NCBI GenBank assembly: GCA_947567595.1
Contig: CANOMQ010000035.1
Coordinates: 1 to 43,544 of the forward strand
Origin: an uncultured Lachnospiraceae bacterium
GTDB taxonomy: Bacteria; Bacillota; Clostridia; Lachnospirales; Lachnospiraceae
Direction of reading: 5' to 3'
DNA: 43,544 nt
Shown piece after piece: positions 10-15,645 of this stretch (the stretch's first letter is position 1; each line of letters opens with the position of its first letter). A program made the position numbers and the translations under genes. The notes under the pieces are model-generated. The model made no database searches. It worked only from the letters and a program-made list of their open reading frames with translations, and was not told the DNA's origin.

Positions 10-204
10 TTAATGTGAAGAATCTGGGTGCAGATAATTCGCCGAACAACACTTACGGATTCCCTCTGTCAGCTCCTCCAGCGTATAGGTGGTATTCTTT
101 TTGGGATCAAACTGCTTCAGCAGGCGCTCCACTTCCTCCTGCCGTTCCCGGTCCTGCTGTTCCTTTATAAAGCGCGCCGTGGCGAGGTCAAGTTCCTTCT
201 CCAT
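10..204 (-). CDS. small charged protein at the distal end of the machine operon
   Basis: A 64-residue protein that I do not recognise. It is rich in Glu, Lys, Arg and Gln, with a likely helical first half (about residues 1-32). It starts 18 bp after the stop of the preceding 257-residue gene, so it is probably co-transcribed with the cluster. No signal peptide or membrane segment is visible. It could be a small helical adaptor of the machine, but nothing in the sequence proves this. Only 9 bp remain before the window edge, so I cannot tell whether the operon continues. Confidence 0.6.
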   Translation of the reverse strand: MEKELDLATARFIKEQQDRERQEEVERLLKQFDPKKNTTYTLEELTEGIRKCCSANYLHPDSSH

Positions 205-222
205 ACCCGGGTCCTCCTGTTC

Positions 223-996
223 CTATATCATTAACAGTGTCTTATCTTTTTTTGGCGGCTGTCCGGAAGGCATCTTCCTGCCACCCGTTTCCATCAGGAT
301 GGCTTTTAATCCACTGTATATCTGTATGTTCGTGTAATCCATGTCCTGACCAAGCCTTACATTTAAATATGCCCTGACTGCCTCATACGGCATTGCCTCC
401 TTAAGCTGCAGGCAGTCCAAACAGAAAGCGCAGTCCCACGGATTCTGTATGGGAAAACGCATCATCTCCCCCGCAAAGCACTTAAAAATCTGAGGGCTGA
501 CACTGCCATGCCCCAAAGACGCATGGGGCGCGTGGATGATGTTCACCGTATCAAATTCCGTATCATAGTCGTAAAAATCCACGTACTCCGTCCGCAGCCT
601 TGCACCGGACTGGAGCTTAAAGCGTCCCAGTTCCAGTTCACATACGGCATCCGGCGGCTGTCCGTCCACGTAAACCCGCGAAAGATATTCCTCCTGCCCG
701 GCGCCGATGGTTTTGTCCAAAAATCGGACCTTTAAATACGTGGTCCTGCCGTCCGCGCTGCATTCGACCATACAGGGTTTCTCCAAAAAATAAATAACCG
801 TCTTGTAAAAAATCATTCCCGGCATGATTTTCAGCCCGCCGTCTGCTTCCCTGAGTTCGCATCCGGACAAAATCCCGTCACTGTAATCCTGATATTGTAT
901 GGCAGACAGGTTTCTCGGGTAATCCCTGAGATTATCCAGCATTTCTTTTTTCAGCAGTCTCTTAGCCTCAAAAACAGGATATGAATTGTGAAACAT
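223..996 (-). CDS. unknown protein, possible baseplate component
   Basis: A 257-residue protein without signal peptide or membrane segments. Near the N-terminus it has a pattern seen in baseplate shell proteins: a short strand, a helix with KKEMLDNLRDYP, then YSDGILSG and a strand ending in IMPGM (about residues 10-60). The type VI protein TssK and some phage baseplate proteins begin with a comparable 'activity/pG' fold. The rest is beta-rich with a helical C-terminus and a basic/proline tail. It follows the 235-residue gene by 20 bp and precedes the 64-residue gene by 18 bp. The coding region is secure; the baseplate idea is a weak inference from context and this N-terminal pattern. Confidence 0.65.
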   Translation of the reverse strand: MFHNSYPVFEAKRLLKKEMLDNLRDYPRNLSAIQYQDYSDGILSGCELREADGGLKIMPGMIFYKTVIYFLEKPCMVECSADGRTTYLKVRFLDKTIGAGQEEYLSRVYVDGQPPDAVCELELGRFKLQSGARLRTEYVDFYDYDTEFDTVNIIHAPHASLGHGSVSPQIFKCFAGEMMRFPIQNPWDCAFCLDCLQLKEAMPYEAVRAYLNVRLGQDMDYTNIQIYSGLKAILMETGGRKMPSGQPPKKDKTLLMI

Positions 997-1016
997 TGTT
1001 TTTCTCCCTCTTCTAC

Positions 1017-1724
1017 TCAGCAGATGGCAATTTCGCCCGTCTGCATGGTTTCCTCCACTCCGATAATCCCGAAATGGTACTCATAAAAAACCTCCACACG
1101 GTACCGGATATCCAGAAAGGTATCCACAAGGAACCGGATTCTCTGCTCCGTTTCCTGCTCTTTCTTCAACCCCGTATAAATCAGGATTTCGTCAAGGCAT
1201 TCATTGCTGTGGTAGACAATGCTGTCCTTTACCAGACAGTGGACCATGTCAAGGAACACCGCAAGGGCGCTTCCCACGCGGAAGCTGTTCATCCAGCCGC
1301 TGAGCAGGATTTCCTGCTCCTCCCTGCTCATGCCCAAAAGTACTGTCTTTGCCGCCTCCCCAAAGCCTCCCTGTAAAATCTCCTCCGCCAAAAGCTTTTT
1401 ATGGTAATCCGCCTTTGTCATTCCCTTACGGACGTCATTTTGCGCCAGCACATGGAGAATCAGGTTGGTGAGGCTCTCCCGCAGGGCAGGACATTCCGCT
1501 TCCTCCGGAGGAAACATGTTTTTAAAGATTTCATAGAACCGGTAATAGGTGTTGACCTCAAGCCGTATTTCCCGTGCTTCCCCGTCGTGAATCCATGCCT
1601 GATTGATGCAGGGCAGGGACATCTCCATGTAACCGCTTCCCAGCGGTGCATGAACAAAGCGGAGCCTGTTTTCCGGAATATGCTCTGCCTGCGCTTCCAA
1701 TAAAACCTCCCATAAATACCTCAT
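1017..1724 (-). CDS. unknown helical protein of the machine operon
   Basis: A 235-residue protein of unknown function, mostly alpha-helical with several conserved-looking aromatic positions and no signal peptide. Its start codon overlaps the stop of the upstream 438-residue gene by 4 bp, which implies translational coupling and near-equal production of the two. In type VI systems TssF and TssG are neighbours that bind each other. This long/short pair is in a comparable position, but I see no diagnostic motif, so that equivalence is only a suggestion. The next gene starts 20 bp downstream. Confidence 0.65.
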   Translation of the reverse strand: MRYLWEVLLEAQAEHIPENRLRFVHAPLGSGYMEMSLPCINQAWIHDGEAREIRLEVNTYYRFYEIFKNMFPPEEAECPALRESLTNLILHVLAQNDVRKGMTKADYHKKLLAEEILQGGFGEAAKTVLLGMSREEQEILLSGWMNSFRVGSALAVFLDMVHCLVKDSIVYHSNECLDEILIYTGLKKEQETEQRIRFLVDTFLDIRYRVEVFYEYHFGIIGVEETMQTGEIAIC

Positions 1725-3037
1725 ACCAGCACACCTCCGCAGTCATACTCGGGATAAATCCTCTGTACCTCCGATGTGAGAAAGCTTAAAATATCCCTTT
1801 GGAGCCATGCTTCCTTCTGCCCGGACCTGAAAAATAAAACCAGCTTGTCCTGCGCTTCCCTGTTCCTAAACTCATCCGTGATAAAAAGATTCATGGAGTA
1901 CGTTTCCTTTTTACCGGGAAATTCCCCTGCAACCCTGCAGTCCTGATACTGCACATAATCCTCGAGTCCAAAGCCTTTGATGAAATGCATGAGCTGCGTC
2001 TTTGTCCGTATGCTCTGGTTCCATTTTGCCTGATATTTTTCCGCAAAGCTTCCTGCCCGCCTGTTTCCAAGCACCGGATAGGTATAGCGGTCGATTTTTA
2101 GCTCCCTTGAGGCACGGATACAGTATATGTTCCACTTTTTTGCCTCGCTGGCGCCGCTGATAATCCGGAGCCGCTCCCCTGCCTGGCTGATGCTGCGGAT
2201 TTCCCTGTCATCATCTGCCAGATAGGCGTTCCCTGCCCCGTGCTCATGCAGTGAGATGATATGTTCAAAGCTGACATGGTCTTCACAGGGTACCGGGAAG
2301 CCGATGCTTTCCATGACCAGCTTTTGGATGTTCCACACCGGAATGACATCCTCCTTCACAATCCGGCTGTAGTCCCCGAACCGTACCGTCACCTGCCTTA
2401 TCCTTTCATTCCCCGTGATTTCCTCCGGAAGTCCTGTCACGACCACGTCCGCCATTTTATACAGATAGGGGGCGTTCACGGTCTGCCACGGTATCCCGTT
2501 TTTGACAAACAGATGGTACAGGTACGCTATCCTGTCAAGATAACCCTTATTTTCCCGCAGCCGCACTTCTATTTTCCATTCCTGCAAAGGCTCATCCGTT
2601 TCAATAATCCCCTCAAATACCGGGGGATTTTCCCACAGCCTCTGTATCTCAAGGTAGTCGCAGTGCAGCATTACCTTCATGAGTGGAAATGCCCCGTCCT
2701 CTTTTACCGCCGTAAGGATTTCCTTCATGTCATAGCTTTTTTCCGCCGCGTCATCCTCTGCAATCGGTGAAAACAGGTGATGGGAGGCATCAAAATATTC
2801 CCGTTCGACAATGCCTGTTCTTATATGGAAGCTGTCTGCATCGTAATCCGTCTCTTCCTTTATCCTCTGTTCCAGCCCTTCATACATCTGCAGGTTTGTT
2901 TCATACAGGGATAAAAATACGCCTTCCATCAGCTCCTTGAAGGCAACACGCTCCTTCAGGCTGTCGATGGACTGTATTTCCCTCTGTATGATTTCCTTCA
3001 TCCCGTCCACTGCGTTTTCCCTGTCCGTCCATCCCAT
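1721..3037 (-). CDS. unknown 438-residue protein, candidate baseplate/wedge subunit
   Basis: A large soluble-looking protein with a helical N-terminus (about residues 10-60) followed by mixed alpha/beta sequence. It has no recognised domain or signal peptide. The start may be the ATG at 3037 or the internal ATG at 3001; neither has a strong ribosome site at ideal spacing. The gene follows the Hsp70-like gene by 9 bp and overlaps the next gene by 4 bp. An N-terminal helical bundle followed by strand-rich domains is compatible with a TssF-like wedge protein, but this is inference from order and size. I recall relatives in Lachnospiraceae carrying unhelpful legacy names, which should not be taken as function. 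Confidence 0.65.
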   Translation of the reverse strand: MGWTDRENAVDGMKEIIQREIQSIDSLKERVAFKELMEGVFLSLYETNLQMYEGLEQRIKEETDYDADSFHIRTGIVEREYFDASHHLFSPIAEDDAAEKSYDMKEILTAVKEDGAFPLMKVMLHCDYLEIQRLWENPPVFEGIIETDEPLQEWKIEVRLRENKGYLDRIAYLYHLFVKNGIPWQTVNAPYLYKMADVVVTGLPEEITGNERIRQVTVRFGDYSRIVKEDVIPVWNIQKLVMESIGFPVPCEDHVSFEHIISLHEHGAGNAYLADDDREIRSISQAGERLRIISGASEAKKWNIYCIRASRELKIDRYTYPVLGNRRAGSFAEKYQAKWNQSIRTKTQLMHFIKGFGLEDYVQYQDCRVAGEFPGKKETYSMNLFITDEFRNREAQDKLVLFFRSGQKEAWLQRDILSFLTSEVQRIYPEYDCGGVLV

Positions 3038-3046
3038 AATCCGCGC

Positions 3047-5521
3047 CTACTTCCTTCCGTCAAAGAAATTCAATTCCCAAGTGTCATCTTCAAAATCAAA
3101 AAAGGTTTCACTGCCCTTATACAAGACCTCCTGATCCCTCAGAACCGGCAGGACCACAAATCCCCACCGTTCCTTTGCAATCCACACAAAGAACTTCATC
3201 TCGCCTTCCAAAATGATGTCCGTTTCCTCCTGAATCACCGTTCCGGCATAGGCTTCGTCAATTTCCTTCTGGGTTGTCTTTTCAAATTTTGAGGTATCAT
3301 ATGCAAAATAACAGGTTTTCAGCGGTTTTCCCTGCTCATCGTTCAGGTACAGGTCAAGCTGACTTCCAATGTGGAAGCGTGAGATACAGCCAATATGGTC
3401 CTCGGGATCAAGGCTGCGTATCAGGACTTTTTCCTTGTTTTCATGGGTATATGCCATAATCTCATAAGGCAGGCTGCCCACCCGGTATTTTTCATTCACT
3501 TCCATATAACCAAGCTTACAGTTCATGAAATAGGCAAGCGCCCCCTCAAGGCAGCACATTTTCAGTTCCGTTCCCGTATCGTCATGCGGTATCCCCTGTA
3601 TTCTTTTTCCCGGCACATACTGCTTAAGCGCTTCAAGAAACAGGCGTGATTTGCAGGACTGCCCCGTAAGCTTAATCATTTCATATTCCGCAAGCTCTCC
3701 CTGCTCAAACTTTTTGTCAAGGAAACGCTCCATCAGACCGTAAATGTCCGGCCGCAGAAGTTCTTCGATTTCATTGAGGTACAGGCATACCCTTATTGGA
3801 CGTTCAGGCGTTTCAAACTGCCCGTCCATGTCAAGGGACAGCTTCCATTTATCAAGCAAAATCCCTTCGCCTGCCTCCGTGGATACTTTTAACTCATAGC
3901 AGAAGTCCTTTTGGAAAAACTGCTTTTTAACTGCTTCTGCAAGTTCAAAAAGATAGTAATAATTGTTTTTTACGTAAAAATAATGCTCCCTGCTTTTCTC
4001 CCGGTATTCCTGAAACTGCGTCGGCAGGAATTTTTCTGATTTCCGGTACCGTCTTTCCAGTTCCTCATAGGCGGCTTTCCCTTCTCCAAATTCCCCGATT
4101 ACAAGTGCTTCTCTCTCCAGAAATCCAAACGCCTCCGCAATCCGTATCTTTAAAAGCTGCAGGATCCGGTAGGTCAGGTTGTTTCCGCCCAGATTCGTGT
4201 CGCCGTTCTCATAGCGCGTTTCCAGACTGACAATGTAGGATACCCTGTTATTCTCAATGCGGAAACGCCCGGATGTCAGATCCGTCGTTCCTCCCCCGCA
4301 GTCAATTACCAGTGTGTGGTACCATCTGCGTTCCTCGTACTTTTTGCCCTGAATCAGGTTGTTTATGCTGTGGAAAAGCACCGCCATTCCCTCATCCAGT
4401 TCGCAGTTGACCGTATATTCCGGAAGCAGCTCCTTAAAAAGCTGTCCGAACTTTTCCTTCTGTCGGATCGGCGCAAGCAGCTGAATATCGGTGAAGCTGC
4501 ATTTAAACTGCTGACGGGCAAGCTCCAAAAGATAATCCAGATAAGCCCTCAGCATTTCCTTTCTCGGAAAGCGGTACCTGCACCCGCTTTTGAGGATGAC
4601 GCTCTCCGTCCGGTCCGCATCGCTCACCCACCGCTTGATATCATAAAATACCGCCACATCCTCATCCCTGTAATTCTGACGGTTCATCTCCTGCGCATCA
4701 TACCCGAACACAAACTGCGTTTCGCCGCTCTCTTTTTCCCTCACGCCGATTATGCTTGGAATGATGGTATGCCCCTTGACGGCTGCCGTCCGCGTGCTTC
4801 CGTCCGGAAGGCAGATTCCCATCGTGGTGTTGGAGCTTCCAAAATCAATGACCAACGGCAGGTCCGCCTGCTGGATTTCCTTTTCCCTGATATCCAGAAG
4901 GGGAATACGCACTGTTTCCGCATAACCCGGAACGGGTGCAGGGCTGCCATGATAGCAGTCGTATAAATATTCCGATATCCTCTCATTCGGGAAATACAGG
5001 ATAAAATACCGGTGCTTTTCAAGCGGTTTCACCTCGACATCCCTGCCCTTGAAGAGATAGGTTTCATCCTGCACCTCCCCAAGGTAAAAACAGGTATATA
5101 CCCTGAGCGCCTCATCCACCAGCAGCAGATTCCCGCAGCAGGGTTTTTCATCGCAGCTGACGCGGTAGCCGTCCAGCTCGTTTAATTCCGTCCCCTGAAA
5201 AAGGGTGATTGTTCCGGGAACCGTAAGCTCCGGCGTTTCCCGGAAACGGACCTTACACCCGTCCAAAAACTGCTGTATGCTGTCCAGTCCGCCTTCATGG
5301 AATTCCCTGATATGACGGTATTCCCTCTGTCCGCGGAAGCGCATAATCAGCCGTATCAGCCCTTCCCTGTCCCCGTTTTTTGACATGGGAACCACCAGAC
5401 GTTCTTTCCTGCAGATTTCGCGCAGATGGAATGTCGTCATTTTTTCCAGCTCGCTCTGTCTGTAGGTACGGTTATCTGTTTCTTCCCGGGCGGGGTTCAG
5501 GGTATAAGTGTACTGGTTCAT
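3047..5521 (-). CDS. Hsp70-like actin-fold ATPase with SAP-like N-terminus
   Basis: An 824-residue protein. The phosphate-1 motif VIDFGSSNTTMG lies near residue 224 and the phosphate-2 motif VIDCGGGTTDLTSG near residue 402. Both are diagnostic of the Hsp70/actin ATPase fold. Before the ATPase come about 220 extra residues: a helix-rich stretch near residues 25-65 resembling SAP/Rho-N modules, then beta-rich sequence. The usual DnaK substrate-binding domain and EEVD-like tail are not evident, so this is a divergent Hsp70-like protein rather than DnaK. Its start overlaps the stop of the PP2C-like gene by 4 bp. A J-domain gene lies in the same operon, suggesting a dedicated chaperone pair for assembling or remodelling the machine. 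Confidence is high for the fold and low for the substrate. Confidence 0.88.
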   Translation of the reverse strand: MNQYTYTLNPAREETDNRTYRQSELEKMTTFHLREICRKERLVVPMSKNGDREGLIRLIMRFRGQREYRHIREFHEGGLDSIQQFLDGCKVRFRETPELTVPGTITLFQGTELNELDGYRVSCDEKPCCGNLLLVDEALRVYTCFYLGEVQDETYLFKGRDVEVKPLEKHRYFILYFPNERISEYLYDCYHGSPAPVPGYAETVRIPLLDIREKEIQQADLPLVIDFGSSNTTMGICLPDGSTRTAAVKGHTIIPSIIGVREKESGETQFVFGYDAQEMNRQNYRDEDVAVFYDIKRWVSDADRTESVILKSGCRYRFPRKEMLRAYLDYLLELARQQFKCSFTDIQLLAPIRQKEKFGQLFKELLPEYTVNCELDEGMAVLFHSINNLIQGKKYEERRWYHTLVIDCGGGTTDLTSGRFRIENNRVSYIVSLETRYENGDTNLGGNNLTYRILQLLKIRIAEAFGFLEREALVIGEFGEGKAAYEELERRYRKSEKFLPTQFQEYREKSREHYFYVKNNYYYLFELAEAVKKQFFQKDFCYELKVSTEAGEGILLDKWKLSLDMDGQFETPERPIRVCLYLNEIEELLRPDIYGLMERFLDKKFEQGELAEYEMIKLTGQSCKSRLFLEALKQYVPGKRIQGIPHDDTGTELKMCCLEGALAYFMNCKLGYMEVNEKYRVGSLPYEIMAYTHENKEKVLIRSLDPEDHIGCISRFHIGSQLDLYLNDEQGKPLKTCYFAYDTSKFEKTTQKEIDEAYAGTVIQEETDIILEGEMKFFVWIAKERWGFVVLPVLRDQEVLYKGSETFFDFEDDTWELNFFDGRK

Positions 5522-7248
5522 GTTCCCTCCTGCTGCATGGCGTCTTCTTCTGCCGCCTGTGTGCCTTCTTCCGTTTCTGTCTGTGTTTCTTCCTCTTCTG
5601 TCTCCTGTGTCTGCGTTTCTTCTTCCGCTTTCTTTTCTGCCTTGGCCGCAGCGCCTGCTTCCGCGGTCGCAATTTTCAGGTCAATTCCTTCCGCAAGCTC
5701 CGTCAGCTCCAGACGGTTATAGATTGCCTTTGCCGCCTGATAAAACGTGGCGGCGCTCTCATAGCTGCCCTCTGCCAGAAGTGCATTGCCCTGATTTTCC
5801 AGATCAATGGCATTCTGCTGGTCATTCGTCTTCTGCTCGTTTTCCATAGCCTTGCTGACAGCCTGTGCCTCTACCTGCTCCTGAATGCGGGCATCCTTCT
5901 CCATCTGCTGCGTTTCCAGCTTTTCCTCCGCAGCCGCCTGCAGTTCAAGCGCCTCCTGCTTTCCTTCAAGGAAATAGAGCTCCACGGCTTTTTGCTTTGC
6001 TTCCTTGTACAGCACAATGGCTCCCTGAATGTTGCCGTACTCCTCTTTTTTCTCGCCCTGCGCAATCAGGTCAAAGACGTGTATGTAGCCCTCCGTCTCG
6101 TCAAGCTGTCCCTCGATGTAGGAAAGTCCGGTGTTTCCTGTCTCCTGTGACATCCGTCTCGCCGTCAGGTACAGCTCCCGTGCCTTTTTATATTCGCCCT
6201 CCCGCAATGCCTCGTCAGACAGGTTTACCTGCTCCGCAAGCTTGGCATACATATCCGCTTCCTCATATTCCGGTTCGCGTTTTAAGGACTTTGCAAGGCT
6301 TTTTGCCTCTCCGTAATCCTGTGCCGCTTTTTGGAAATTATGATAGGCAAGGTACTGTGCGCCGCTCTCCATGTGCTGACGCATGGATTCCGTCTTTGTG
6401 CGCACGCTGCGGTAATGCATATACACCGCCACGGAGGCAATGGTGACGGCAAGGAGGACAGGCAGGGCAATCATCAGGATTTTTTTGACGGACAGCGGCT
6501 TTTTCGGCGACCTGTACACCTTGTTTACGGATGTCAGCGCGAGGGAATAATTGTCAATTTCGCTGTTTTCCTGATTTTTCAGGATGAAATCCTCGGTCCT
6601 GCTGAGAATGTCCTTTGTTTCCCCCGCATCATTGACAATCTGCAGGAATTCCTGTTCCCCGCACTGCTCCCACACGCCTCTTGTGAGCTGGATGATCAGT
6701 TCCCCGTCCTCCAGCTTCTTTTTCCCTGAGACCTGCAGCTTCGGGTTTCCCCTTTCCCCCAGAAATGAGTACAGGTTATTGCGCTCTTCATGGCGCGCCG
6801 CCTCATCCGGTATGAGCTGCCCCTGCTCAAGGAGGTTCTGTGTCAGGGACTGGTCCTTTGTCCGTTCCAGAATGCGGGCATTCCTGACAAGGTACAGGCG
6901 GCTGTTTCCGACATGGCAGAACCGCAGCTTCCGGTAATCCGTTACCGCAACCGCCACGGCAGCCTTTAAGTGCATTCCCGACCTTTGGTGCAAAAGCTCT
7001 GCGTGCGCCCTGCGCAGGTATCTTTTCAGGGTTCCCGCCCGCATCGAGGGAGCCTGCGTAAAATCCCGGATAATGCTCTCCACCACAAGCCTTGCGCTGT
7101 TGGACTCGGGGTCTTCGTCCAGACTGTCTGCAAGCACATAGCAGGCAAAATCATCCATTTCCACGAAACCGAAATAATCGCGGTTGGACAGCTTCTGTCC
7201 CTCCTCCGATATATGAAGCGTCTGAAATTCAGAATTAATTCTTCTCAT
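5518..7248 (-). CDS. membrane protein with N-terminal PP2C-like domain and C-terminal helical repeats
   Basis: A 576-residue protein in three parts. Residues 1 to about 245 resemble a PP2C phosphatase: NRDYFGFVEMDD, then VLADSLD, HVGNSRLY and finally DNYSLAL. A single membrane helix follows (about residues 254-277, LMIALPVLLAVTIASVAVY). Then comes a long TPR-like helical region and a Glu/Thr/Gln-rich tail. The usual catalytic triplets are altered: GDSR is GNSR and the glycine-rich DGMGG motif is absent. It may therefore be a pseudophosphatase that binds a phosphoprotein without cleaving it. The start has a good ribosome site (GGAGG) and overlaps the PP2C gene upstream by 14 bp. The role in regulating the machine is inferred from neighbours. 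Confidence 0.8.
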   Translation of the reverse strand: MRRINSEFQTLHISEEGQKLSNRDYFGFVEMDDFACYVLADSLDEDPESNSARLVVESIIRDFTQAPSMRAGTLKRYLRRAHAELLHQRSGMHLKAAVAVAVTDYRKLRFCHVGNSRLYLVRNARILERTKDQSLTQNLLEQGQLIPDEAARHEERNNLYSFLGERGNPKLQVSGKKKLEDGELIIQLTRGVWEQCGEQEFLQIVNDAGETKDILSRTEDFILKNQENSEIDNYSLALTSVNKVYRSPKKPLSVKKILMIALPVLLAVTIASVAVYMHYRSVRTKTESMRQHMESGAQYLAYHNFQKAAQDYGEAKSLAKSLKREPEYEEADMYAKLAEQVNLSDEALREGEYKKARELYLTARRMSQETGNTGLSYIEGQLDETEGYIHVFDLIAQGEKKEEYGNIQGAIVLYKEAKQKAVELYFLEGKQEALELQAAAEEKLETQQMEKDARIQEQVEAQAVSKAMENEQKTNDQQNAIDLENQGNALLAEGSYESAATFYQAAKAIYNRLELTELAEGIDLKIATAEAGAAAKAEKKAEEETQTQETEEEETQTETEEGTQAAEEDAMQQEGT

Positions 7249-8092
7249 TTATGCCTCCAGCCTTCTGTATCAGGATGACACTCCCGTTTTCCTTCTGTGG
7301 GTTTTCTTTTGACTCCGCCGCGCTGATGATGCGTTCCGCAAGCTCCTGCAAAGATGCCGTGACAATCAGGATATCCTCCAGCTCCCTCCATGAAAGCTCC
7401 TCAAAAATCCCTTTGCTTGCCAGAAGCACCTTGTCCCCTGCCTTTAACCGCACGGGCTGTTCACAGATTTCTATTTCGTGGAAGCCATCCTGCCCCAGAT
7501 AATTCCAGACGCGTTTTTCTTCCATGCTCCAGATGGTCTCCTGCCTTGACAGCTTTCCGTCTTCATAAGCCTGCGCCGCCAGCACGTCCATTGTCTGCCC
7601 TTTGCTGAGCGGAATGAGCTCCCCGCCCCTCAAAACGGCAACCCGGATATCGCCTGCCACCGCATAATGCAGACGGTTTTGATCCATAAATACTGCCCCT
7701 GCGCCCGCACCGCCCCTGCGCTCCCCTATCGTTCTTTGGATGCGCCTGTGTGCTTCCGAAAACGCGGTCCGGAAAAAATAGGCAGGATTGTTTAACTCCT
7801 GATATGGCTCGAACCTGTCAAGGATGGTATCCGCCGCAATCTGCGCGCAGACCTTTCCGGTATTTGCAATGCCGATTCCGTCCGCAACCACCGCCATGAT
7901 TCCGGCGGTACCGGTCCATAGCTGCGCCGTATCTGCCTGAATCTCACGGCTGCCCGTTGTCTGTGCTGTCCCTGTCAGGAACGCTTCCATCGCAATACAG
8001 TCTGTTTCTCTGTGCTGCAAAAGGCAGCGGCATACAAGCAGAATTATGTATAATGCACCTGCCGCGAATGTCAGCCCTATGCCGCCTGTCAT
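7235..8092 (-). CDS. PP2C-family serine/threonine phosphatase, membrane-anchored
   Basis: A 285-residue protein. An N-terminal hydrophobic segment (about residues 3-24) is followed by a PP2C-like domain. Family features visible are VVADGIG (metal-binding Asp), VAGDIRV (the GD motif) and a late DKVLLASKGIFEEL stretch in which the usual DG is replaced by KG. PP2C enzymes remove phosphate from Ser/Thr. In type VI systems such a phosphatase (PppA) opposes a kinase and acts on an FHA protein. Here two FHA genes lie immediately upstream and the start overlaps the zinc-ribbon/FHA stop by 4 bp. No kinase is visible in this window. The KG substitution makes full activity uncertain. Confidence 0.85.
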   Translation of the reverse strand: MTGGIGLTFAAGALYIILLVCRCLLQHRETDCIAMEAFLTGTAQTTGSREIQADTAQLWTGTAGIMAVVADGIGIANTGKVCAQIAADTILDRFEPYQELNNPAYFFRTAFSEAHRRIQRTIGERRGGAGAGAVFMDQNRLHYAVAGDIRVAVLRGGELIPLSKGQTMDVLAAQAYEDGKLSRQETIWSMEEKRVWNYLGQDGFHEIEICEQPVRLKAGDKVLLASKGIFEELSWRELEDILIVTASLQELAERIISAAESKENPQKENGSVILIQKAGGINEKN

Positions 8093-8586
8093 TTCAGATC
8101 ACCCCATGAAAAATTTTTCCCGCACAGGGGAACAAACAGGAAACGGCTCTGTCCCATGCTGATGACGTCATACGGGTTTAGTTCCATCGGCACATAGACC
8201 GGCTTTTCATTCAGGTATGCAATGCCCGCGGAATCACCCGGCAGAATCATGGTATTCAGGTTTTTGGGATCATAGACAATAATGGTATGGTTCTTACGGT
8301 TAATTTCATTGTCGCCGAGGATTTGAATATCCATGTCGTCACCCCTGCCGACAAAGTTTTTTCCCTCATGGACCTTGTAATCCGTTCCCACCCTTGCGCC
8401 CTCAATACAGATAATCCATCCGCATACCGGCTTTACCGGTTCGTCCAGTATCTCAACCGGAGGCTCAAACCCCGGGGGCTTTTCCGGCGATGCCTCCTCC
8501 TGCATTTTCATGCTGCAGTACGGACATATTTTTCCGTAGCGTCTGGAATTGTAAACATGACCGTTCGGACACTTTGCTAAACTCAT
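8089..8586 (-). CDS. zinc-ribbon plus FHA domain protein
   Basis: A 165-residue cytoplasmic protein. The N-terminus has a zinc ribbon: CPNGH near residues 6-10 and CPYC near residues 21-24, the single Cys and the CxxC pair plus His being the likely ligands. A proline-rich linker leads to an FHA domain (about residues 65-150) with VGRGDDMDIQI, INRKNHTIIVYD and a late YDVISMG segment. FHA domains bind phosphothreonine. It sits between a membrane FHA gene and the PP2C gene, a phospho-reader/eraser pair. The usual FHA Ser-x-x-His is Asn-Arg-Lys-Asn-His here, so binding may be altered. Domain calls are good; the partner is unknown. Confidence 0.88.
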   Translation of the reverse strand: MSLAKCPNGHVYNSRRYGKICPYCSMKMQEEASPEKPPGFEPPVEILDEPVKPVCGWIICIEGARVGTDYKVHEGKNFVGRGDDMDIQILGDNEINRKNHTIIVYDPKNLNTMILPGDSAGIAYLNEKPVYVPMELNPYDVISMGQSRFLFVPLCGKNFSWGDLK

Positions 8587-8649: not shown

Positions 8650-9219
8650 TCACGTCAAAAGCAGTTTTGTGTTCGCAATGTAAAGAATATCCCCTGCCGC
8701 AACCTTACATGGTCTGTGGATTACCCGGTAACACTCCCCGTCCTCCACCTTCCTTATTTTTACGCCGTTTTGGGATTCCAAATCCTCCACATACCACTGA
8801 TCCAGCGTAAAATTCAGCACGGCATGCTGGAAATCAATAAAGCTGCTGTACTCGCAGTCCAATAAATCAATATCCGGCTCCTGACTTTGATCCGATTTCC
8901 CGATAACCAGTGAAATACGCCCCTGCATATCCCACGATTTGACAGGTCTGTCCTGTCCGTCCAACAGCACAAGTTTCTGAACCCCATGTGTCCCGGCTGT
9001 CCCTGATTCTGATAACACGGCTCCTGTTTTATCCTTTCCAAGAAGGACGAAATCACATACTGCCCATACCATCGTGACCGCCGCCGCAAGTATCAGTGCA
9101 GGCAGATACCGCCATGCGTTCATTTCCTTCACCAGGCTGATAATAAGAACGGTCCCGCATAACAGAATCAGGCAGTCAAAAATCCGCTTTGTCTTTTTTC
9201 TGTTCCTTTCCTGCCCCAT
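8650..9219 (-). CDS. membrane FHA-domain protein
   Basis: A 189-residue protein, taking the ATG at 9219, which follows a strong GGGAGG ribosome site. The longer frame up to 9366 overlaps the J-domain gene and is probably not used. Two membrane helices (about residues 15-33 and 37-57) are followed by a cytoplasmic FHA domain: ISLVIGKSD, DIDLLDCEYSSFIDFQHAVL and VEDLESQNGVKI carry the family signature of Gly, Ser-x-x-His-like and Asn-Gly residues. It would bring phosphothreonine partners to the membrane. It begins 19 bp after the J-domain gene and is separated by 63 bp from the zinc-ribbon/FHA gene. Confidence 0.85.
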   Translation of the reverse strand: MGQERNRKKTKRIFDCLILLCGTVLIISLVKEMNAWRYLPALILAAAVTMVWAVCDFVLLGKDKTGAVLSESGTAGTHGVQKLVLLDGQDRPVKSWDMQGRISLVIGKSDQSQEPDIDLLDCEYSSFIDFQHAVLNFTLDQWYVEDLESQNGVKIRKVEDGECYRVIHRPCKVAAGDILYIANTKLLLT

Positions 9220-9238
9220 TTTCTTTTCCGCCTCCCAC

Positions 9239-9661
9239 CTATTTCCTGATACCAAAAAAAGCAGCGAACATTTCCTCCGGCACGACAGGGGCTTTTGGTT
9301 TTGCTGCCTTCTGTCCCCGGTAGGTTTCCATCCCTTTTCCGGGCTGAAAGCCAAAAAAGCGTTCAAACTGGCTCATGTCCGGAGCGCATGTTTCCGAAGG
9401 TTCTGCCGCTCCCTTACGGCTGCGTCCGGCGTCCGTATGTTTCCCAAAAGCTTTCAGACAGTCCGCATCATATTTTTTCCGCTGTTCCTCATTGCTTAAG
9501 CAGGAATACGCTTCCTGAATTTCATACATGCGTTCCTGTTTTACGGCATCGTCCTTAACCACGTCCGGATGGTACTGTTTTGCCAGCCTGCGGTATGCCT
9601 TTTTTATTTCCTCTGCCGGCGCCTGCCTGTCCACGCCCAATATCCTGTAATAATCCTTCAT
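9239..9661 (-). CDS. J-domain (DnaJ-like) co-chaperone
   Basis: A 140-residue protein. Residues 1-68 form a canonical J domain starting MKDYYRILGVDR, with the essential HPD tripeptide in QYHPDVV near residue 31. The zinc-finger and C-terminal domains of full DnaJ are absent. The tail instead has two short related motifs, FFGFQPG and FFGIRK. J domains stimulate Hsp70 ATPases, and the obvious partner is the Hsp70-like protein encoded in the same operon. This is the first gene after the hairpin that follows the tube-like genes, so its level may be lower than theirs. Confidence 0.93.
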   Translation of the reverse strand: MKDYYRILGVDRQAPAEEIKKAYRRLAKQYHPDVVKDDAVKQERMYEIQEAYSCLSNEEQRKKYDADCLKAFGKHTDAGRSRKGAAEPSETCAPDMSQFERFFGFQPGKGMETYRGQKAAKPKAPVVPEEMFAAFFGIRK

Positions 9662-9686
9662 TTTACGCCACCCGTAAATATCTGTT

Positions 9687-9715
9687 AAAAGGGCTGCCCG
9701 ACAGTAAGGCAGCCC
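9687..9715 (-). terminator. intercistronic hairpin after the tube-like genes
   Basis: A perfect 8-bp GC-rich stem, GGGCTGCC (9691-9698) and GGCAGCCC (9708-9715), with a 9-nt loop. On the minus strand it is followed by TTTT at 9687-9690. It lies between the second tube-like gene and the J-domain gene. The short T-run suggests a leaky terminator or an RNA 3'-end stabiliser, giving more transcript for the structural genes than for the downstream regulators. Confidence 0.75.
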
Positions 9716-9754
9716 CCTTTTCCCACATTCCCGTCAATTCTTCCTGCGGAAATG

Positions 9755-10183: not shown

Positions 10184-10242
10184 ATTATAATCATGCTCCT
10201 TTCATCTGCGGTTTCATGTCCTCCTGTTTTGGAAACATCCGC

Positions 10243-10671
10243 TTATTCCTCACTAAATCCGCCCTCAAATTTCAAATTGCTCATTTTATCCCTCTTCTGT
10301 TTGATGAGAAGCTTGAATGTACCGGCGCCGGTCTCATCTGTAAAGTCCTCCTCATATCCGACCACGAAAGCATTCGGCACGGTAATCTGACGCACAATCT
10401 GTGATGCGCTCACGACGTCAATCTTCACCTTGCGGTAGCAGTCGGCTTTTTCAGCCGGAACAAGCGACCATTTTGCCAGCTTGCTTGTGTCATCCGCCGC
10501 TTCGCCGCCCACCGGCGCCAAGATCTTTCCCTCAATCAGTACCGTGGAACCAAGGTCCGTCGATCTGGCATTTGAGTCAAGGGGAATATCCGCCCCGACA
10601 CGGACTCCCGTGATGCTGGTTTCCAGCAGGCTCACAGTCTCGCTTCCTTCAATGTTTACTCGCATTCCCAT
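10243..10671 (-). CDS. tube-like protein, paralog 1
   Basis: A 142-residue beta-rich protein, sister of the 9755-10183 gene, with conserved SNARSTDLGST, AEKADCYRKV and the C-terminal FKLLIKQKRDKM. It starts 41 bp after the sheath-like gene and is preceded by a strong AAGGAGG ribosome site, consistent with high expression. As in type VI and phage-like machines, the sheath gene is followed directly by tube-sized genes. Two paralogs could form alternating or stacked rings, or one could cap or initiate the tube. The structural role is inferred from size, pattern and gene order, not from a recognised family signature. Confidence 0.75.
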   Translation of the reverse strand: MGMRVNIEGSETVSLLETSITGVRVGADIPLDSNARSTDLGSTVLIEGKILAPVGGEAADDTSKLAKWSLVPAEKADCYRKVKIDVVSASQIVRQITVPNAFVVGYEEDFTDETGAGTFKLLIKQKRDKMSNLKFEGGFSEE

Positions 10672-10712
10672 TTTTAGTCCTCCTTTTTCTTATCCGTACA
10701 AAACGTACATAA

Positions 10713-12881
10713 TTATTCATTTCCAGCTTTTCTGATAAGCTGTACTTTCAGGTTTTTGGTTGTGTTTGCAAATGTCACAAGCACATCGCATATTCCGTTC
10801 TTTTCGTCAATGCTGTATTCCAGCTCGTCCCCGTCCTGAAGGATGGAGTTGACATACTGCCGGTCCGCATCCCACCTGCTTTTCTGGCTGCTGGGATTGT
10901 TGCTGAAAAACGTAAGGATTTTGTCCTGCTTGAAATCCCCGCTGTAAAAACGCAGCATACGTTCTATGTAGGTAACTACCAGCGTCTTGTATATGGGCTC
11001 AAACTCCGTTCCGTTGCTTAAGAGGTTACGCGCCTTATAGACGGTTATGCTCTTAATCTCCTGTCCCTTGTACTGCGCGTTATCGGAAGAAAAGACGAAG
11101 CCGAAGCCCGTGCGGTTAATGGAATTTTTAATCGCGTTGGTAAAACCGGAAATCTCCTTTGTCATGCTGGTTGTTGCAAGAAGCGCATTATCATTTGCCT
11201 CCACGTCAAACCGCACGCCGGGATATTCCATGCTGGTATTGCGGAACCGCTGCTTTAGGTATTCCGGGCACTGCCATGCCGCCACAATGCCTGCCGCTTC
11301 ATACGCTGCACCCACGTAAACCCCTTCTAGCCACATTTTCATCACGTCGTCCTTTTCCGCGGAAAGGGATACGTTGCCGTCTTCATCCATGACCATCCGC
11401 TTGTCCAAAATCAGACCGGATTTATCCTTGGGGATGATTGTCACATTCGGGATACAGGGCACGATGAACTCGCTGTATGTTTTTTTCATAAGCGGTGCAC
11501 ATTTTTCCTTATAAATGCTGACTCCCTCGGTTGCCACATAACTGAATGTCGTTTCCTCGCCGGAACAGAAGCTGAAAAACGTCGTAATCCGGTAAGGCTC
11601 AATGGCGTTCATCAGGGCTGCCACGCTCTCCATCGAATTATTCCCCTGTTTCTCTTCCCGTTTGTTTCCCGCGAAGCGGACTCTTTGGAGCTTTCCGCCT
11701 TCCGCATGGTTCAGCTCCACATCCGGCACGATTCCAAACCAAATCGTGTTGTCAAACTCGTTCTTATCATTTGTTGTATTCAGGTAAGCGATTAACCGCG
11801 GAAGGTTGCTCGCCTTTACCATCATGTCAAGCGGCAGGTTGGTAATCAGAAGCTTCGGCTGCATTCCTTTTTCCTTTACCTGATACTGGTCAAAAAAGGT
11901 TTTCACCCCTAGTATCTTTTCCATCAGGGGCTTGACAGCCTTCACAAAATCGTCCTTGCTTTTTTTGTAAAATTCAAGGTAGCTGTTGTAATTGCGCACC
12001 TCAAGCTCCCTGTTGACGCTGCTTTCCATTGTGGAATTTAACGGACAGAAGGTACGTACCACAAGATCCCGCACATAATCGGATTTGTTTTCATTGAGCG
12101 CATCATAATCCTCGCGGAACGTGTTCATGAGGCTTGTATTAATCTCATCATCCACCACGGCAAGACTGGTGCTTTCCTCCTGCTTCATCTCCAGTATCTT
12201 GAGCTCCCCGTCATCGCCCATGCTTAGCAGTCCGGCTTTAAAATCCGCCTGCCCCTGCCCTGTTTCCGGTCCCCCGAGCAGAAGGCGTGTCTTGATATCC
12301 TCGATTGCAAGCGGCAGCATTGCAAGGACATTATTGTAATTCTGGCTTGCCTGCTCGAACTGGTAATTCAGCTTATCGCCTAAGTCCAGCCGCTTGGGAT
12401 CCTCCTCATCAAGCTCCATGTATTTCCCGTAGGTATACTGGATTTCCCTGCGAACCTGACGGATGTCATCCATAATCTTCTTAGGTGAAATCATATCGAG
12501 AACATTACTGAATTTGAAATCCACGTTTGCAAGTCCCTGTGCGCCTTTTGTACTCATCAGCGTGATAAGCATGTTCAAAAGGTCGTTCGATTCGTTTAAC
12601 GGGATTTCCGTAATACAGTTTGTCGGGATATTTTCCGGCTTTACCGGACTGTAGCGGATGCTTCCTGTTGTCGCATCACACCACGAATACATTACCGGAC
12701 TGAATTTTTCCAAAAATTCCTCAAAGCTTGAGACCAGCAGTTCCCCGTTGATTTCCTTGATTTTCTCATCATCCAGGCTGCTTTTTCCCCGCACATCGCC
12801 AATCAGTGTCAACAGGTTGAGCCGTTCCGGATTGATTTCGGCAAACAGGATTGTCCTGTTTGTCTGTGTGATTGTTTCCAT
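10713..12881 (-). CDS. contractile-sheath-like protein
   Basis: A 722-residue protein starting at the ATG at 12881, 11 bp after AAGGAGG. A TTG at 12890 is too close to the ribosome site. Patterns resembling contractile sheath proteins are: a helical segment near residue 125 (SNVLDMISPKKIMDDIRQ) like the helix after the FsP motif of TssB; GVYVGAAYEAAGIVAAW near residue 525, like the 'aGlyArtD..rGvwkaPa' zone of phage sheaths; and a C-terminal helix VVTYIERMLRFY near residue 634 followed by a strand-rich end, as in TssC. The size suits a fused or enlarged TssB/TssC. It lies 27 bp after the VWA gene and just before two tube-like genes. This is inference from patterns; a structural prediction would settle it. 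Confidence 0.72.
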   Translation of the reverse strand: METITQTNRTILFAEINPERLNLLTLIGDVRGKSSLDDEKIKEINGELLVSSFEEFLEKFSPVMYSWCDATTGSIRYSPVKPENIPTNCITEIPLNESNDLLNMLITLMSTKGAQGLANVDFKFSNVLDMISPKKIMDDIRQVRREIQYTYGKYMELDEEDPKRLDLGDKLNYQFEQASQNYNNVLAMLPLAIEDIKTRLLLGGPETGQGQADFKAGLLSMGDDGELKILEMKQEESTSLAVVDDEINTSLMNTFREDYDALNENKSDYVRDLVVRTFCPLNSTMESSVNRELEVRNYNSYLEFYKKSKDDFVKAVKPLMEKILGVKTFFDQYQVKEKGMQPKLLITNLPLDMMVKASNLPRLIAYLNTTNDKNEFDNTIWFGIVPDVELNHAEGGKLQRVRFAGNKREEKQGNNSMESVAALMNAIEPYRITTFFSFCSGEETTFSYVATEGVSIYKEKCAPLMKKTYSEFIVPCIPNVTIIPKDKSGLILDKRMVMDEDGNVSLSAEKDDVMKMWLEGVYVGAAYEAAGIVAAWQCPEYLKQRFRNTSMEYPGVRFDVEANDNALLATTSMTKEISGFTNAIKNSINRTGFGFVFSSDNAQYKGQEIKSITVYKARNLLSNGTEFEPIYKTLVVTYIERMLRFYSGDFKQDKILTFFSNNPSSQKSRWDADRQYVNSILQDGDELEYSIDEKNGICDVLVTFANTTKNLKVQLIRKAGNE

Positions 12882-12908
12882 GCCTGTCAATTCCTCCTTA
12901 AATGTTTT

Positions 12909-14897
12909 TTACTGGAATGCCGCAATATAGTGGATTTCCAAATCATAACTGCCATCCGGAGAGGTGATGTAGATAATATCCCCGAAATGGATGCTATACT
13001 GTATCTGCATACATGCAATGGTGTTTCCAACCATCACTGCGGATTTTGACCTGTGATATAAAACCATGCTGCGGTTCTCGTCCGCAATCAAAAAAATCTC
13101 ATCCAGTTCCAGTATTCTCGCCTGCTCAGGATAATTCCCAAACAGGGAGCCAAGTGATACCCTGCCGTCCTTTACCTTGTTCATTTGGAACGAAAGCGGA
13201 GGGATTTCCTCACTTTCCGGCGGCTGCAGCACAAAATATGCGTCCAGCTTTCCGCAGAAATGGTTCTGTTTCTTTTCCTCAGTCAGCCGCTCCAGCTCCG
13301 GTTTCGGCTTATGTGTCAGTCTCCACAGAATAATTGTAACGACAGCGGCTGCCAGCAGGATAACCCACCAGTAGACCTGCCACAGCGGAAGAATCCTGAT
13401 ACGGTAAGCATACTGTATCGTGCTTTCCCCGTCGCTTACCTGTACTGCCACGATGGATGTCCCCACACTCTTAGGCGTAACCGTCAGCAGATTCCCATCC
13501 AGACGGGCGTCAATCCCCTCCTGTACATCCGCAATGGAATAGGAAAGTATGTCGCCGTCGCCATCCGTAAAATAATCATCCAAACATAACGTCCGGCTGC
13601 CCTCCAATAACGTACCGTCTTTTTCGGGAATGCTTCCGGTCGGTACTGTATTCGTTACCTCAATAAAAGCTGAAAATGTATGCTTTCCAAAATCATCTTC
13701 CAGCACTGCATCCAATCCGTATGTCCCCGCATGGGAAAAGCTTGCATTTCCTTTGAGTATCCCGTCCGATACATATGGTTCCTCCAGCGCTGCCCCTGAA
13801 TCACCACAGAAAGGAGACCACGAAAACGTTTCATAAAATGCAGCATCCGTTATCATTTCACCCTGACGGTTCTTAAAATATACCTGATATTCCTGATTTT
13901 GGTTTTTCCTTGCGGTTGTCGGTATCTCCAGTACGGGTATCAGTTCCCTGTAGCTGATTACGTAAGCCTGTAAATCCTGTCCCTCGTCCGTCTGCGAATG
14001 GATGACCAGTTCCTTTCCGCCGTTCCATGCATTCCCTATTTTCCCGACGGCATAATGCGACAGGTTGGTCATCGGGATTGCTTCCCCGCCATATGTAACT
14101 TCCGTTTCACCAACAGCCCCCGAAGAAATCAGCAGCACTTTTATTTCGTCCAGATACGGCGCATCGGGCACGTACCTGATTTCCTGAGTTCCTCCCGCAT
14201 ACATTCCGCTGGAAAGCTGATGGATTTCATAAATCAGGTTATCTTCAAAAATCCCGTAAAAAACTTCAATCAGGTTTTCGGGGCTTTGTACGGAATAGCC
14301 TTCCGCCCCCGTTTCGTCAGCGATTTCCTGTAATTCCGCTTTATTTCCATCGTACTGTCCAAAGGCTACCGTATAAATCTGTATGTTTTCCTCCGAACAC
14401 TGTCGGACGCATTGTGCCAGTTCCCTGTCTGACTGTTCCGCCGTCCGTTCACTGTCCTTTGGCAGATCCGTTTCCCCATCTGAAATCAGGACCATGACCT
14501 GCTTTGATGCTCCCCCTGCGGAAAACAAATCATATGCATAGGAAACACCCAGTCCGATATCCGTATCGCCGGAATACGTTATTGCACCGAGTTCTTCTTT
14601 CAAATTCTCCCTTATCCGTGTCTCTGCAATGGACTCAGGAGACGAAAAAGACAGTATGGTTTCGTTGTAAGCCACATATCCCACACGTATGCTTCCTGTC
14701 TGAACGGTATCGATAAATGCCTGTACCATGTTCAGCCCCATTTTCGACGGATCATTTGTTTTCATGGAACCGCTGCAGTCAATGACGAAAATAATGTCCA
14801 ACGGCGTTTTTTCTGAAATGATTTCCTCGGCATATACTGTCTGCGAAAAGGCAAGGCACAAAATCAGGCAGCAAAGCAGTATTCGGGTTCCTTTCAT
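12909..14897 (-). CDS. secreted/membrane VWA-domain protein
   Basis: A 662-residue protein using the ATG at 14897, 17 bp after the agrD1 stop. It has a signal peptide (MKGTRILLCCLILCLAFS). A von Willebrand A domain follows, with the metal site FVIDCSGSM near residue 40, a Thr in GDTDIGLG and VLISDGETD. Then come beta-sandwich-like repeats on the outside, a single membrane helix near residues 503-522 (WVILLAAAVVTIILW), and a cytoplasmic tail that looks FHA-like (GRVSLGSL, SMVLYHRSKSAVMVGN, HFGDIIYI). It could sense an extracellular ligand and pass the signal to the phospho-network or anchor the machine at the membrane. It is the first non-Agr gene of the operon. The FHA-like assignment of the tail is tentative. 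Confidence 0.85.
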   Translation of the reverse strand: MKGTRILLCCLILCLAFSQTVYAEEIISEKTPLDIIFVIDCSGSMKTNDPSKMGLNMVQAFIDTVQTGSIRVGYVAYNETILSFSSPESIAETRIRENLKEELGAITYSGDTDIGLGVSYAYDLFSAGGASKQVMVLISDGETDLPKDSERTAEQSDRELAQCVRQCSEENIQIYTVAFGQYDGNKAELQEIADETGAEGYSVQSPENLIEVFYGIFEDNLIYEIHQLSSGMYAGGTQEIRYVPDAPYLDEIKVLLISSGAVGETEVTYGGEAIPMTNLSHYAVGKIGNAWNGGKELVIHSQTDEGQDLQAYVISYRELIPVLEIPTTARKNQNQEYQVYFKNRQGEMITDAAFYETFSWSPFCGDSGAALEEPYVSDGILKGNASFSHAGTYGLDAVLEDDFGKHTFSAFIEVTNTVPTGSIPEKDGTLLEGSRTLCLDDYFTDGDGDILSYSIADVQEGIDARLDGNLLTVTPKSVGTSIVAVQVSDGESTIQYAYRIRILPLWQVYWWVILLAAAVVTIILWRLTHKPKPELERLTEEKKQNHFCGKLDAYFVLQPPESEEIPPLSFQMNKVKDGRVSLGSLFGNYPEQARILELDEIFLIADENRSMVLYHRSKSAVMVGNTIACMQIQYSIHFGDIIYITSPDGSYDLEIHYIAAFQ

Positions 14898-14914
14898 GAT
14901 TTTGCTTCCCTTTC

Positions 14915-15067
14915 CTACTTCAGGTTTCCCTTTGGTCTTTTGGGCTGATGGTAAATGGCTGCACATGCGGACGCTTTGCCATGCATGCTCTTTTCCACCT
15001 CATTGCGTGCAAGCTTCTCCACAGCCTTCAAAACCTTACCTGAAATGTTTCCCGTTTTCTTCATCAT
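14915..15067 (-). CDS. agrD: AgrD-type cyclic autoinducer precursor 1
   Basis: A 50-residue peptide gene overlapping the agrB1 stop as ATGA. The N-terminal half is amphipathic (KVLKAVEKLA). The likely ring is CAAIY at residues 35-39, preceded by KASA and followed by the charged tail HQPKRPKGNLK, the pattern of clostridial cyclic lactone autoinducers. AgrB would cleave the tail and close a five-residue thiolactone on Cys35. The next gene, encoding the VWA protein, starts 17 bp downstream, so the signal peptide gene is inside the machine operon. The ring boundaries are predicted from the Cys and the conserved tail, not measured. Confidence 0.92.
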   Translation of the reverse strand: MMKKTGNISGKVLKAVEKLARNEVEKSMHGKASACAAIYHQPKRPKGNLK

Positions 15068-15645
15068 ACCTTAACCTCCTGTTTCAATATTTTTGCCAGA
15101 CACATCAAGGCGGAACACAATATCATGGCAATCGACATAAAACATACATAAAGCCGGTTGATTTCCAGTACAGCCGAAACGGCAATGACCCCGGTCTCAA
15201 TCAATGCAAGCAGTCTCGCCGCCTTCTTGGTTTCCTGCAGTTCATGCTGATCCATATCCATATTGGGGTGGTTCACAGTCCCAATCATTTCAATGACAAG
15301 CACCGCCCAAACCAAAATTCCATACATCATGAAGGGCTTTTCCACCAATACAAACGCTGCCTGAATAACACCGACGTAAGTTACCACCGTCAGCAGATAG
15401 CACTGCCAAAATTTATCCGCATGATAACCTCCGGTTCGTTTCCGCAGGGAAAGAAAAAATATCAGAAAAATAACCGTGGAAACAAACTGATGAAAAAATA
15501 TACCAACCATTAACATACTTCCGACCGCAATCATATGTTCTGTCATGGTTATCAAAGCGTATTCATAGTATTCTCTGTCTGCTTTTTCTATGATGTTTTC
15601 CCTTTCCATTCGGTCAGCCAATTTTAATACTGCTTTCTCAACCAC
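15064..15645 (-). CDS. agrB: AgrB peptide-processing membrane protease 1
   Basis: A 193-residue polytopic membrane protein. The AgrB catalytic pair is visible in GGYHADKFWQC as His75 and Cys82. It processes and helps export the AgrD peptide encoded just downstream. The start is a GTG at 15645, ten bases after AAGGAG. A second candidate, the internal ATG encoding MERENII, would give a slightly short protein. Unlike the agr2 locus, agrB comes before agrD here. Its own promoter lies at 15669-15735, after the agrC1 terminator, so agrB1 opens the operon containing the sheath and tube genes. Confidence 0.95.
   Translation of the reverse strand: MVEKAVLKLADRMERENIIEKADREYYEYALITMTEHMIAVGSMLMVGIFFHQFVSTVIFLIFFLSLRKRTGGYHADKFWQCYLLTVVTYVGVIQAAFVLVEKPFMMYGILVWAVLVIEMIGTVNHPNMDMDQHELQETKKAARLLALIETGVIAVSAVLEINRLYVCFMSIAMILCSALMCLAKILKQEVKV

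Follow-up and report, generated by a model that had tools for sequence, protein, structure and literature searches.

A Lachnospiraceae gene cluster with Hcp-like tube proteins and an Hsp70-like chaperone pair: a probable type VI-like contractile injection machine of monoderm Bacillota

A single minus-strand operon in an uncultured member of the Lachnospiraceae, an abundant gut family, probably encodes the structural and control part of a monoderm Bacillota injection machine, contractile and attached to the cell, that works in the manner of a type VI secretion system (T6SS); we put the probability of this reading at about 0.7. The window analysed here is a whole contig (C35) of 43,544 bases from a genome of 4.16 Mb in 99 contigs. 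A contractile-injection or type VI-like machine was already the original prediction for this DNA, and it is still the best explanation of the gene content and linkage, the tube protein family, the VgrG- and PAAR-like genes found in relatives, a baseplate-like structural model (of moderate score) and a weakly TssB-like N-terminus in the sheath candidate.

Between positions 17830 and 223 the minus strand carries one series of genes, with a LytTR regulator gene first and the gene for a 257-aa protein last (Table 1). The tight operon itself spans 223-14966 and is adjoined by agrBD and genes for a kinase and a regulator (14915-17830). Neighbouring genes, from that of the VWA protein as far as that of the 257-aa protein, are separated by gaps of -128 to +93 bp, with -4 overlaps in three cases. 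Every gene that had been named beforehand was found at its place and on its strand, and the J-domain protein (DnaJ, 9.6e-23), the two FHA proteins, the two PP2C proteins and the VWA protein are all matched by family models, one FHA and one PP2C protein below the cut-off. The contig, which is not closed, is likely to be a plasmid, as had been proposed, because its right half carries a Rep3 initiator gene, parA, a TraG/D-like gene and a second agr set. A search of viral contigs with two peptide patterns, a method of low sensitivity, found relatives in 0 of 30 stretches, which hints that this is not a present-day phage.

Table 1. Features of the minus-strand gene series, in the order of the strand (first gene at the top)
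Feature	Position	Strand	Evidence
LytTR response regulator, AgrA-like	17108..17830	-	Pfam LytTR 3.7e-17, Response_reg 3.3e-13
GHKL sensor kinase, AgrC-like	15809..17107	-	Pfam HATPase_c_5 6.9e-27
AgrB peptide-processing membrane protein	15064..15645	-	Pfam AgrB 7.8e-37
AgrD-type cyclic lactone peptide precursor, 50 aa	14915..15067	-	small-ORF scan; NCBIfam TIGR04223 8.6e-8, above cut-off
Membrane VWA protein	12909..14966	-	Pfam VWA 4.3e-16; hydropathy segments 29-47, 528-546
Candidate contractile sheath, TssB-like N-terminus, 722-725 aa	10713..12890	-	hhalign against TssB
Tube protein 1, Hcp/TssD-like, 142 aa	10243..10671	-	Pfam TssD 0.0098, below cut-off; family-level support
Tube protein 2, Hcp/TssD-like, 142 aa	9755..10183	-	Pfam TssD 0.0014, below cut-off; family-level support
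J-domain protein	9239..9661	-	Pfam DnaJ 9.6e-23
Membrane FHA protein, two TM segments then FHA	8650..9366	-	Pfam FHA 1.8e-6; hydropathy
Cytosolic FHA-like protein, N-terminal Cys motif (by eye)	8089..8586	-	Pfam Yop-YscD_cpl 1.4e-7, FHA 9.2e-4, both just below cut-off
PP2C phosphatase 1, N-terminal TM	7235..8092	-	Pfam PP2C_2 3.1e-7; hydropathy
PP2C phosphatase 2, one TM, TPR-like C-terminal part	5518..7248	-	NCBIfam Stp1 2.1e-19, below model cut-off; Pfam TPR_2 0.0013, below cut-off; hydropathy
Hsp70-like ATPase, 824 aa	3047..5521	-	NCBIfam DnaK 0.0073; family profile against PDB DnaK 0.055
Probable baseplate wedge protein, TssF/gp6-like, 438 aa	1721..3037	-	predicted structure
Conserved 235-aa protein, candidate second baseplate part	1017..1724	-	linkage, 36/39 loci, divergent clusters too
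Conserved 257-aa protein, candidate third baseplate part	223..996	-	linkage, 26/39 loci
ORF of 64 codons at the contig end	10..204	-	no match by p200 profile

As judged from profile searches at the family level, the two 142-aa proteins, which are 56% identical to each other, belong to the Hcp/TssD-type tube family, so that the tube of the T6SS has a counterpart in this operon and the expectation of two tube-sized paralogs is borne out. Among 20 aligned relatives of these proteins, 13 match Pfam TssD (best 3.2e-5) and 4 match the T4 tube protein gp19 weakly (best 0.0014), and when the family profile was run against the PDB, the sole chain returned up to an E-value of 10 was Hcp1 (0.0028). The tube protein has no match in NCBIfam, and comparison of the family with a proteobacterial Hcp profile by hhalign gave 0.2% only.

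The gene next to the tube genes encodes the probable contractile sheath, a protein of 725 residues from a TTG start or 722 from an ATG; none of the other nine proteins compared is as well conserved (82-86% identity with three relatives in the family, 58% with Pseudobacteroides). The T6SS profiles against which it was set in hhalign drew on E. coli W together with eight plasmid clusters and had 5 to 7 sequences each. Of 12 such profiles the best for the whole protein was TssB, at a probability of 6.7. A sub-profile of the N-terminal 180 columns, selected after that result, reached a probability of 24.9 with TssB (E 7.8e-4), with ten other T6SS families at 1.5 or less; under a relaxed setting the alignment passes through two TssB motifs in order, and none of 400 column shuffles attained the observed score (highest 25.0 vs 29.1). 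TssC was unmatched by profile comparison. (It should be noted that the clusters' VgrG-like proteins, used as a control, matched T6SS VgrG at 98.4%, and that the tube missed Hcp in the same comparison, so that an absent match here is not proof of absence.) Neither Pfam nor the PDB gave a T6SS or phage-sheath match for the candidate, and 26 divergent members likewise brought up no sheath family, only single, scattered and weak Pfam matches. The claim of a sheath-like protein is probable, with weak support from the TssB-like N-terminus. An AlphaFold model from a 20-row alignment, which was too shallow, had a pLDDT of 48.6, and its Foldseek matches were disregarded. Two other resemblances were dropped: the weak one to parvovirus NS1 that shallower queries had shown was lost once a deeper profile was used, and neither profile reproduced the single protein's match to a designed repeat protein (2.5e-5).

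For the 438-aa protein the predicted structure (pLDDT 85.5) points to a probable baseplate wedge of the TssF/gp6 kind. Its first PDB matches are baseplate chains of contractile injection systems (CIS) and T6SSs: Foldseek puts a Streptomyces CIS baseplate chain first, the model resembles the CIS baseplate chains 9gtp_2G, 9gtp_1G and 7b5h_AH, and in VIA-align the nearest is a T6SS baseplate chain. The structural check that had been proposed for this protein accordingly returned baseplate-like matches, but at moderate scores and low TM-scores. The 235-aa and 257-aa proteins, neither of which has an informative match in Pfam, PHROGs, NCBIfam or the Tss profiles, are possible further baseplate parts in view of their linkage. 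A likeness noted by eye between the 257-aa protein and a protein of contig C11 came to 1.5% in profile comparison and was dropped. When 16 families were compared with the profiles of 5 to 7 sequences each, nothing exceeded 2.0% for TssE, TssG or TssK.

It had been suggested that the spike, recycler and effectors may lie outside the window. Spike, tip and effector genes are indeed found there, downstream in the clusters of relatives and at other places in the genome, but no recycler of the ClpV type was matched in the ten proteins scanned from relatives. In one relative's cluster two proteins are VgrG-like, matching Phage_GPD at 1.5e-9 and 7.4e-10, and a DUF4280 protein is encoded too (4.3e-18, above cut-off); another relative has matches to vgr_GE (1.4e-15) and to the PAAR-like IglG (2.1e-9), both below the model cut-offs. 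Rhs effector genes follow as well; three Rhs proteins align over about 2,250-2,285 residues and leave the C-terminal tip unaligned. In a relative, DUF4280 (1.9e-6) is fused to an AHH nuclease domain (1.5e-4, just below cut-off), and an Imm11-like gene (3.1e-9) adjoins the fusion gene. The genome of the window itself holds a second machine of the same kind on contig C18, with a sheath 57% identical, VgrG-like genes, an Hsp70-like gene, the 438-, 235- and 257-aa genes and a DUF4280 gene, as well as VgrG-like clusters near the ends of contigs C30 and C41.

The earlier call of an Hsp70-like ATPase with a J-domain protein is firm for the latter, but the library match to Hsp70 is weak in the window copy. 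The ATPase does have motifs of the Hsp70/actin type, recognised by eye, and a divergent relative matches Pfam SrfB (4.1e-7, above cut-off), a name that belongs to Salmonella SrfABC; the likeness to that system concerns this protein. An AAA+ protein or ClpV-type recycler was matched neither among the 16 operon proteins in Pfam, nor among ten proteins from relatives, nor by the TssH profile in a comparison of 16 families, and as far as sequence goes the cluster appears to lack a ClpV/TssH counterpart. The Hsp70-like ATPase is a candidate either for a substitute recycler or for an assembly chaperone; a housekeeping Clp ATPase, such as the product of a ClpA-like ORF (by eye) on contig C7, could also serve as recycler.

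Hydropathy places membrane segments in four proteins, namely the VWA protein, the membrane FHA protein and both phosphatases, and in none of the tube, sheath, 438-, 235- or 257-aa proteins. The VWA protein, laid out as a signal-like segment, a VWA domain, one C-terminal TM segment and a cytosolic tail, is a candidate contact sensor or anchor. The ORF of the membrane FHA protein shares 128 bp with the J gene and probably has its true start further in. No kinase was matched within the operon in the window; a Ser/Thr kinase gene lies beside the machine in two of 44 related loci (L042 and L044), in L063, and in three of 12 loci from a phylum sample (L105, L108 and L110). Of T6SS membrane proteins, the TssL profile was unmatched and the 16 operon proteins gave no IcmF or DotU match in Pfam.

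Genome contigs queried with the 722-aa protein yielded the 44 loci, at best-segment identities of 57-98%, in sequences titled Lachnospiraceae and related clostridia, a Peptostreptococcaceae bin, Pseudobacteroides and Acetivibrio. Gene content was counted in the 39 that extend at least 9 kb past the sheath gene, using profiles built partly from these same loci. The Hsp70-like gene occurs in all 39, at least one tube gene in 38 and a pair of them in as many, both FHA and both phosphatase genes in 38 each, the J and VWA genes in 36 each, the 438-aa gene in 37, the 235-aa gene in 36, and the 257-aa gene, which often falls past the fetched end, in 26. Because these core genes recur in nearly all 39 loci, their grouping is not chance. 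Of the 399 core genes counted over all 44 loci, 396 share the strand of the sheath gene, and the other three are all in L044. In genome samples that overlap in part, the sheath protein was present in 13 of 398 genomes of an even sample of the phylum Bacillota and in 15 of 299 genomes of the window's own family (the window's genome being counted in both), and in 42 of 189 genomes of another family (f39). Twelve loci from the phylum sample, some of which stop at contig ends, have the tube gene (12), the Hsp70-like and 235-aa genes (9 each), a VgrG-like gene (8), and the two FHA genes and the PP2C gene (7 each); two of the twelve, the divergent, smaller clusters L101 and L102, have no matched FHA, PP2C or J genes. 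Sixteen loci taken from weaker-scoring matches in f39 retain the sheath (16/16), tube (14/16) and 438-aa (13/16) genes. The machine reading had been staked on homologous clusters not lacking machine-like genes, and the relatives do hold tube, VgrG-like and PAAR-like genes.

A complete Agr module (AgrB, AgrD, GHKL kinase and LytTR regulator) stands at the head of the series, with agrD overlapping the ends of both agrB and the VWA ORF, and a second agrBD, kinase and regulator set lies at 18016-20834, its kinase and regulator assigned by similarity to the first. Among the 44 related loci AgrB was found at 10 and LytTR regulators at 17, counts that are lower bounds given the narrow AgrB profile. 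Agr thus seems not to be a constant component of the machine cluster, but it may control the operon in the window.

Taken together, these features suggest how the machine may work. The Hcp-like proteins would stack as a tube within a sheath made of one large protein of the TssB/TssC type, and the 438-aa protein with the 235- and 257-aa proteins would form a baseplate on the cytoplasmic membrane, bearing a tip made up of VgrG-like proteins, DUF4280/PAAR-like proteins and polymorphic Rhs effectors. An Agr density signal would raise expression, probably at high density. The VWA, FHA and PP2C membrane proteins would anchor the baseplate and act as a phosphorylation switch triggered by contact, which would be sensed by the outward VWA domain and passed on as altered phosphorylation read by FHA. 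Contraction of the sheath would then drive the tube, VgrG, the PAAR-like tip and the effector out and into a neighbouring cell, and the Hsp70-like ATPase and J protein would assemble or recycle the sheath in place of ClpV. We infer these events (contraction, anchoring, secretion, trigger, the chaperone role and Agr control) from the genes. On this reading the system belongs to the contractile injection machines and possibly forms a new class among them. The specific proposal, to which we give a little less than an even chance, is such a new class, a membrane-anchored machine of monoderm bacteria, gut Lachnospiraceae among them, in which Hsp70/J stands in for ClpV, a one-piece sheath for TssB/TssC, and an outward VWA protein with FHA/PP2C (and a Ser/Thr kinase in some relatives) for the TssJLM trigger, the plasmid-borne copy being under quorum control.

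Such a machine shares with T6SSs (i-iii) the Hcp/TssD-like tube, FHA and PP2C proteins and the TssB-like start of the sheath candidate, as well as the 438-aa model nearest a T6SS baseplate chain in VIA-align and, through its relatives, VgrG-like, PAAR-like (IglG/DUF4280) and Rhs proteins. These counterparts, the TssF-like protein among them, would be expected if the operon encoded a true, divergent T6SS subtype rather than a separate class, an alternative that overlaps the preferred reading, which concerns the mode of working. Unlike the T6SS, the system has Bacillota hosts, one large sheath candidate instead of TssB plus TssC, an Hsp70-like ATPase and J protein in the operon, a VWA membrane protein and adjoining Agr genes, and TssC, TssE, TssG, TssK, TssA, TssL and TssH were all unmatched in a profile comparison of limited sensitivity that also missed Hcp for the tube. 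We regard true T6SS membership as rather unlikely, though deserving of serious consideration.

Another possibility is an extracellular, phage-tail-like particle released by lysis, of the R-type bacteriocin or eCIS kind, in which the signalling genes are carried by chance. Streptomyces/Anabaena-type CIS and Afp/PVC-type eCIS (PLTS) are among the closest known systems, the Streptomyces CIS chain that heads the Foldseek list fits this idea, and a separate cluster on contig C11 that looks eCIS-like by eye suggests that the lineage may use such particles. The five window families compared with single proteins of the C11 cluster, however, gave 2.4% or less in hhalign; four of the control proteins have membrane segments; and no phage-type sheath, LysM, tape-measure, tail-fibre or AAA+ protein was matched among the operon proteins of this cluster, which is cut at the window's left edge, in Pfam (16 proteins) or in NCBIfam and PHROGs subsets (9 and 7), with fibre, tape-measure, LysM and AAA+ unmatched also in ten proteins from relatives. 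Release by lysis is improbable on this evidence. Still more doubtful is a domesticated intracellular device, a stress, scaffold or developmental structure assembled from tail-like parts with no contractile weapon: a regulated assembly inside the cell could make use of the chaperone, FHA and phosphatase genes, and the minimal clusters L101 and L102 do without matched phospho-control genes, but the machine of relatives is linked to genes for Rhs and DUF4280-nuclease effectors that have immunity-like neighbours.

The T6SS has been described as widespread in Gram-negative bacteria, with CIS known in Gram-positive Streptomyces (PMC12210884); T6SS-like CIS have been reported in haloarchaea since 2024 (PMC11566945), and eCIS/PLTS clusters of Firmicutes have been listed (PMC4122934). 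A 2021 survey of PAAR proteins recorded Firmicutes PAAR_H2 (DUF4280) genes that lie beside Phage_GPD genes where T6SS and eCIS genes are lacking, and its authors speculated that Gram-positive bacteria have an "unknown phage-like translocation system" (PMC8651086). That pairing fits the downstream part of clusters such as the present one, although the survey's passages on it make no mention of genes for a sheath, tube, baseplate, chaperone or control protein. The open-access literature, from which preprints and many subscription journals fall outside, yielded no description of a system of this type, in line with the original view of it as a candidate undescribed system. A contractile injection machine of the kind preferred here would extend these machines by a further line, in gut commensals that are Gram-positive, and would point to a way in which Lachnospiraceae fight their neighbours. 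It would also provide an Hsp70-driven counterpart to ClpV and explain why that survey met orphan DUF4280/Phage_GPD genes in Firmicutes (PMC8651086). Named strains among the matches, such as Lacrimispora algidixylanolytica SPL73, Pseudobacteroides cellulosolvens ATCC 35603 and [Clostridium] clostridioforme AGR2157, make it testable.

At the left edge, base 10, where the stretch originally singled out begins, is the end of the 64-codon ORF. By eye this ORF is like the start of a gene for a protein of about 200 residues (p200), an assignment rejected for want of a profile match. The first 52 bases of the contig also terminate contigs C7 and C79, its possible continuations; neither the last 19.3 kb of C7 nor the whole of C79 contains machine genes, and a regulator-like ORF is present in that part of C7.

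Bases 1-52 of the window recur at the right ends of two other contigs of the same genome, C7 and C79. Because these first 52 bases are repeated, the sequence suggests that a multi-copy element may interrupt the machine cluster at the window's left edge. The window also holds a second agr set, which has its own kinase and its own regulator (see the table).

Second agr set in the window
Feature	Window position	Remark
Second agrBD with own kinase and own regulator	18016-20834	Directly upstream of the first agr set
AgrD of the second set	18599-18745	TIGR04223, 9.2e-8

The same genome carries a further machine of the window's kind, which looks complete (C18:27000-65065; loci L081 and L082). It has a single tube gene, along with three VgrG-like genes; a J gene is absent from its ORF listing, in which the picking of ORFs can hide short genes. 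An eCIS-like phage-tail cluster was recognised by eye on contig C11 (67000-104000; locus L085, and L113 5099-18127), and inspection by eye assigned to it a 579-aa sheath-like protein, two tube-sized proteins and baseplate-sized proteins. A DUF4280 domain is found on C11 near this cluster.

Among related loci, candidate sheath genes can be paired. Acetivibrio alkalicellulosi has two near each other with a tube gene in between (L048 6950-12187); compared with the candidate sheath of the window, these two show identities of about 50% and 57%. Another locus has two in tandem (L155 2998-7534).

A p177-family Imm11/Imm43-like gene is present in the divergent, smaller machine form at L102 (7384-7953). 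Since relatives of this gene recur in such clusters, its product may serve as a structural adaptor instead of conferring immunity. A divergent machine branch (L145-L160), from bacterial family f39, encodes an Hsp70-like protein of ~530 aa and a protein of ~1000 aa, whose L102 relative has a weak HSP70 match (0.0046). With the additional Hsp70/actin-like ORFs seen there by eye, each machine of this branch perhaps has several Hsp70-like ATPases.
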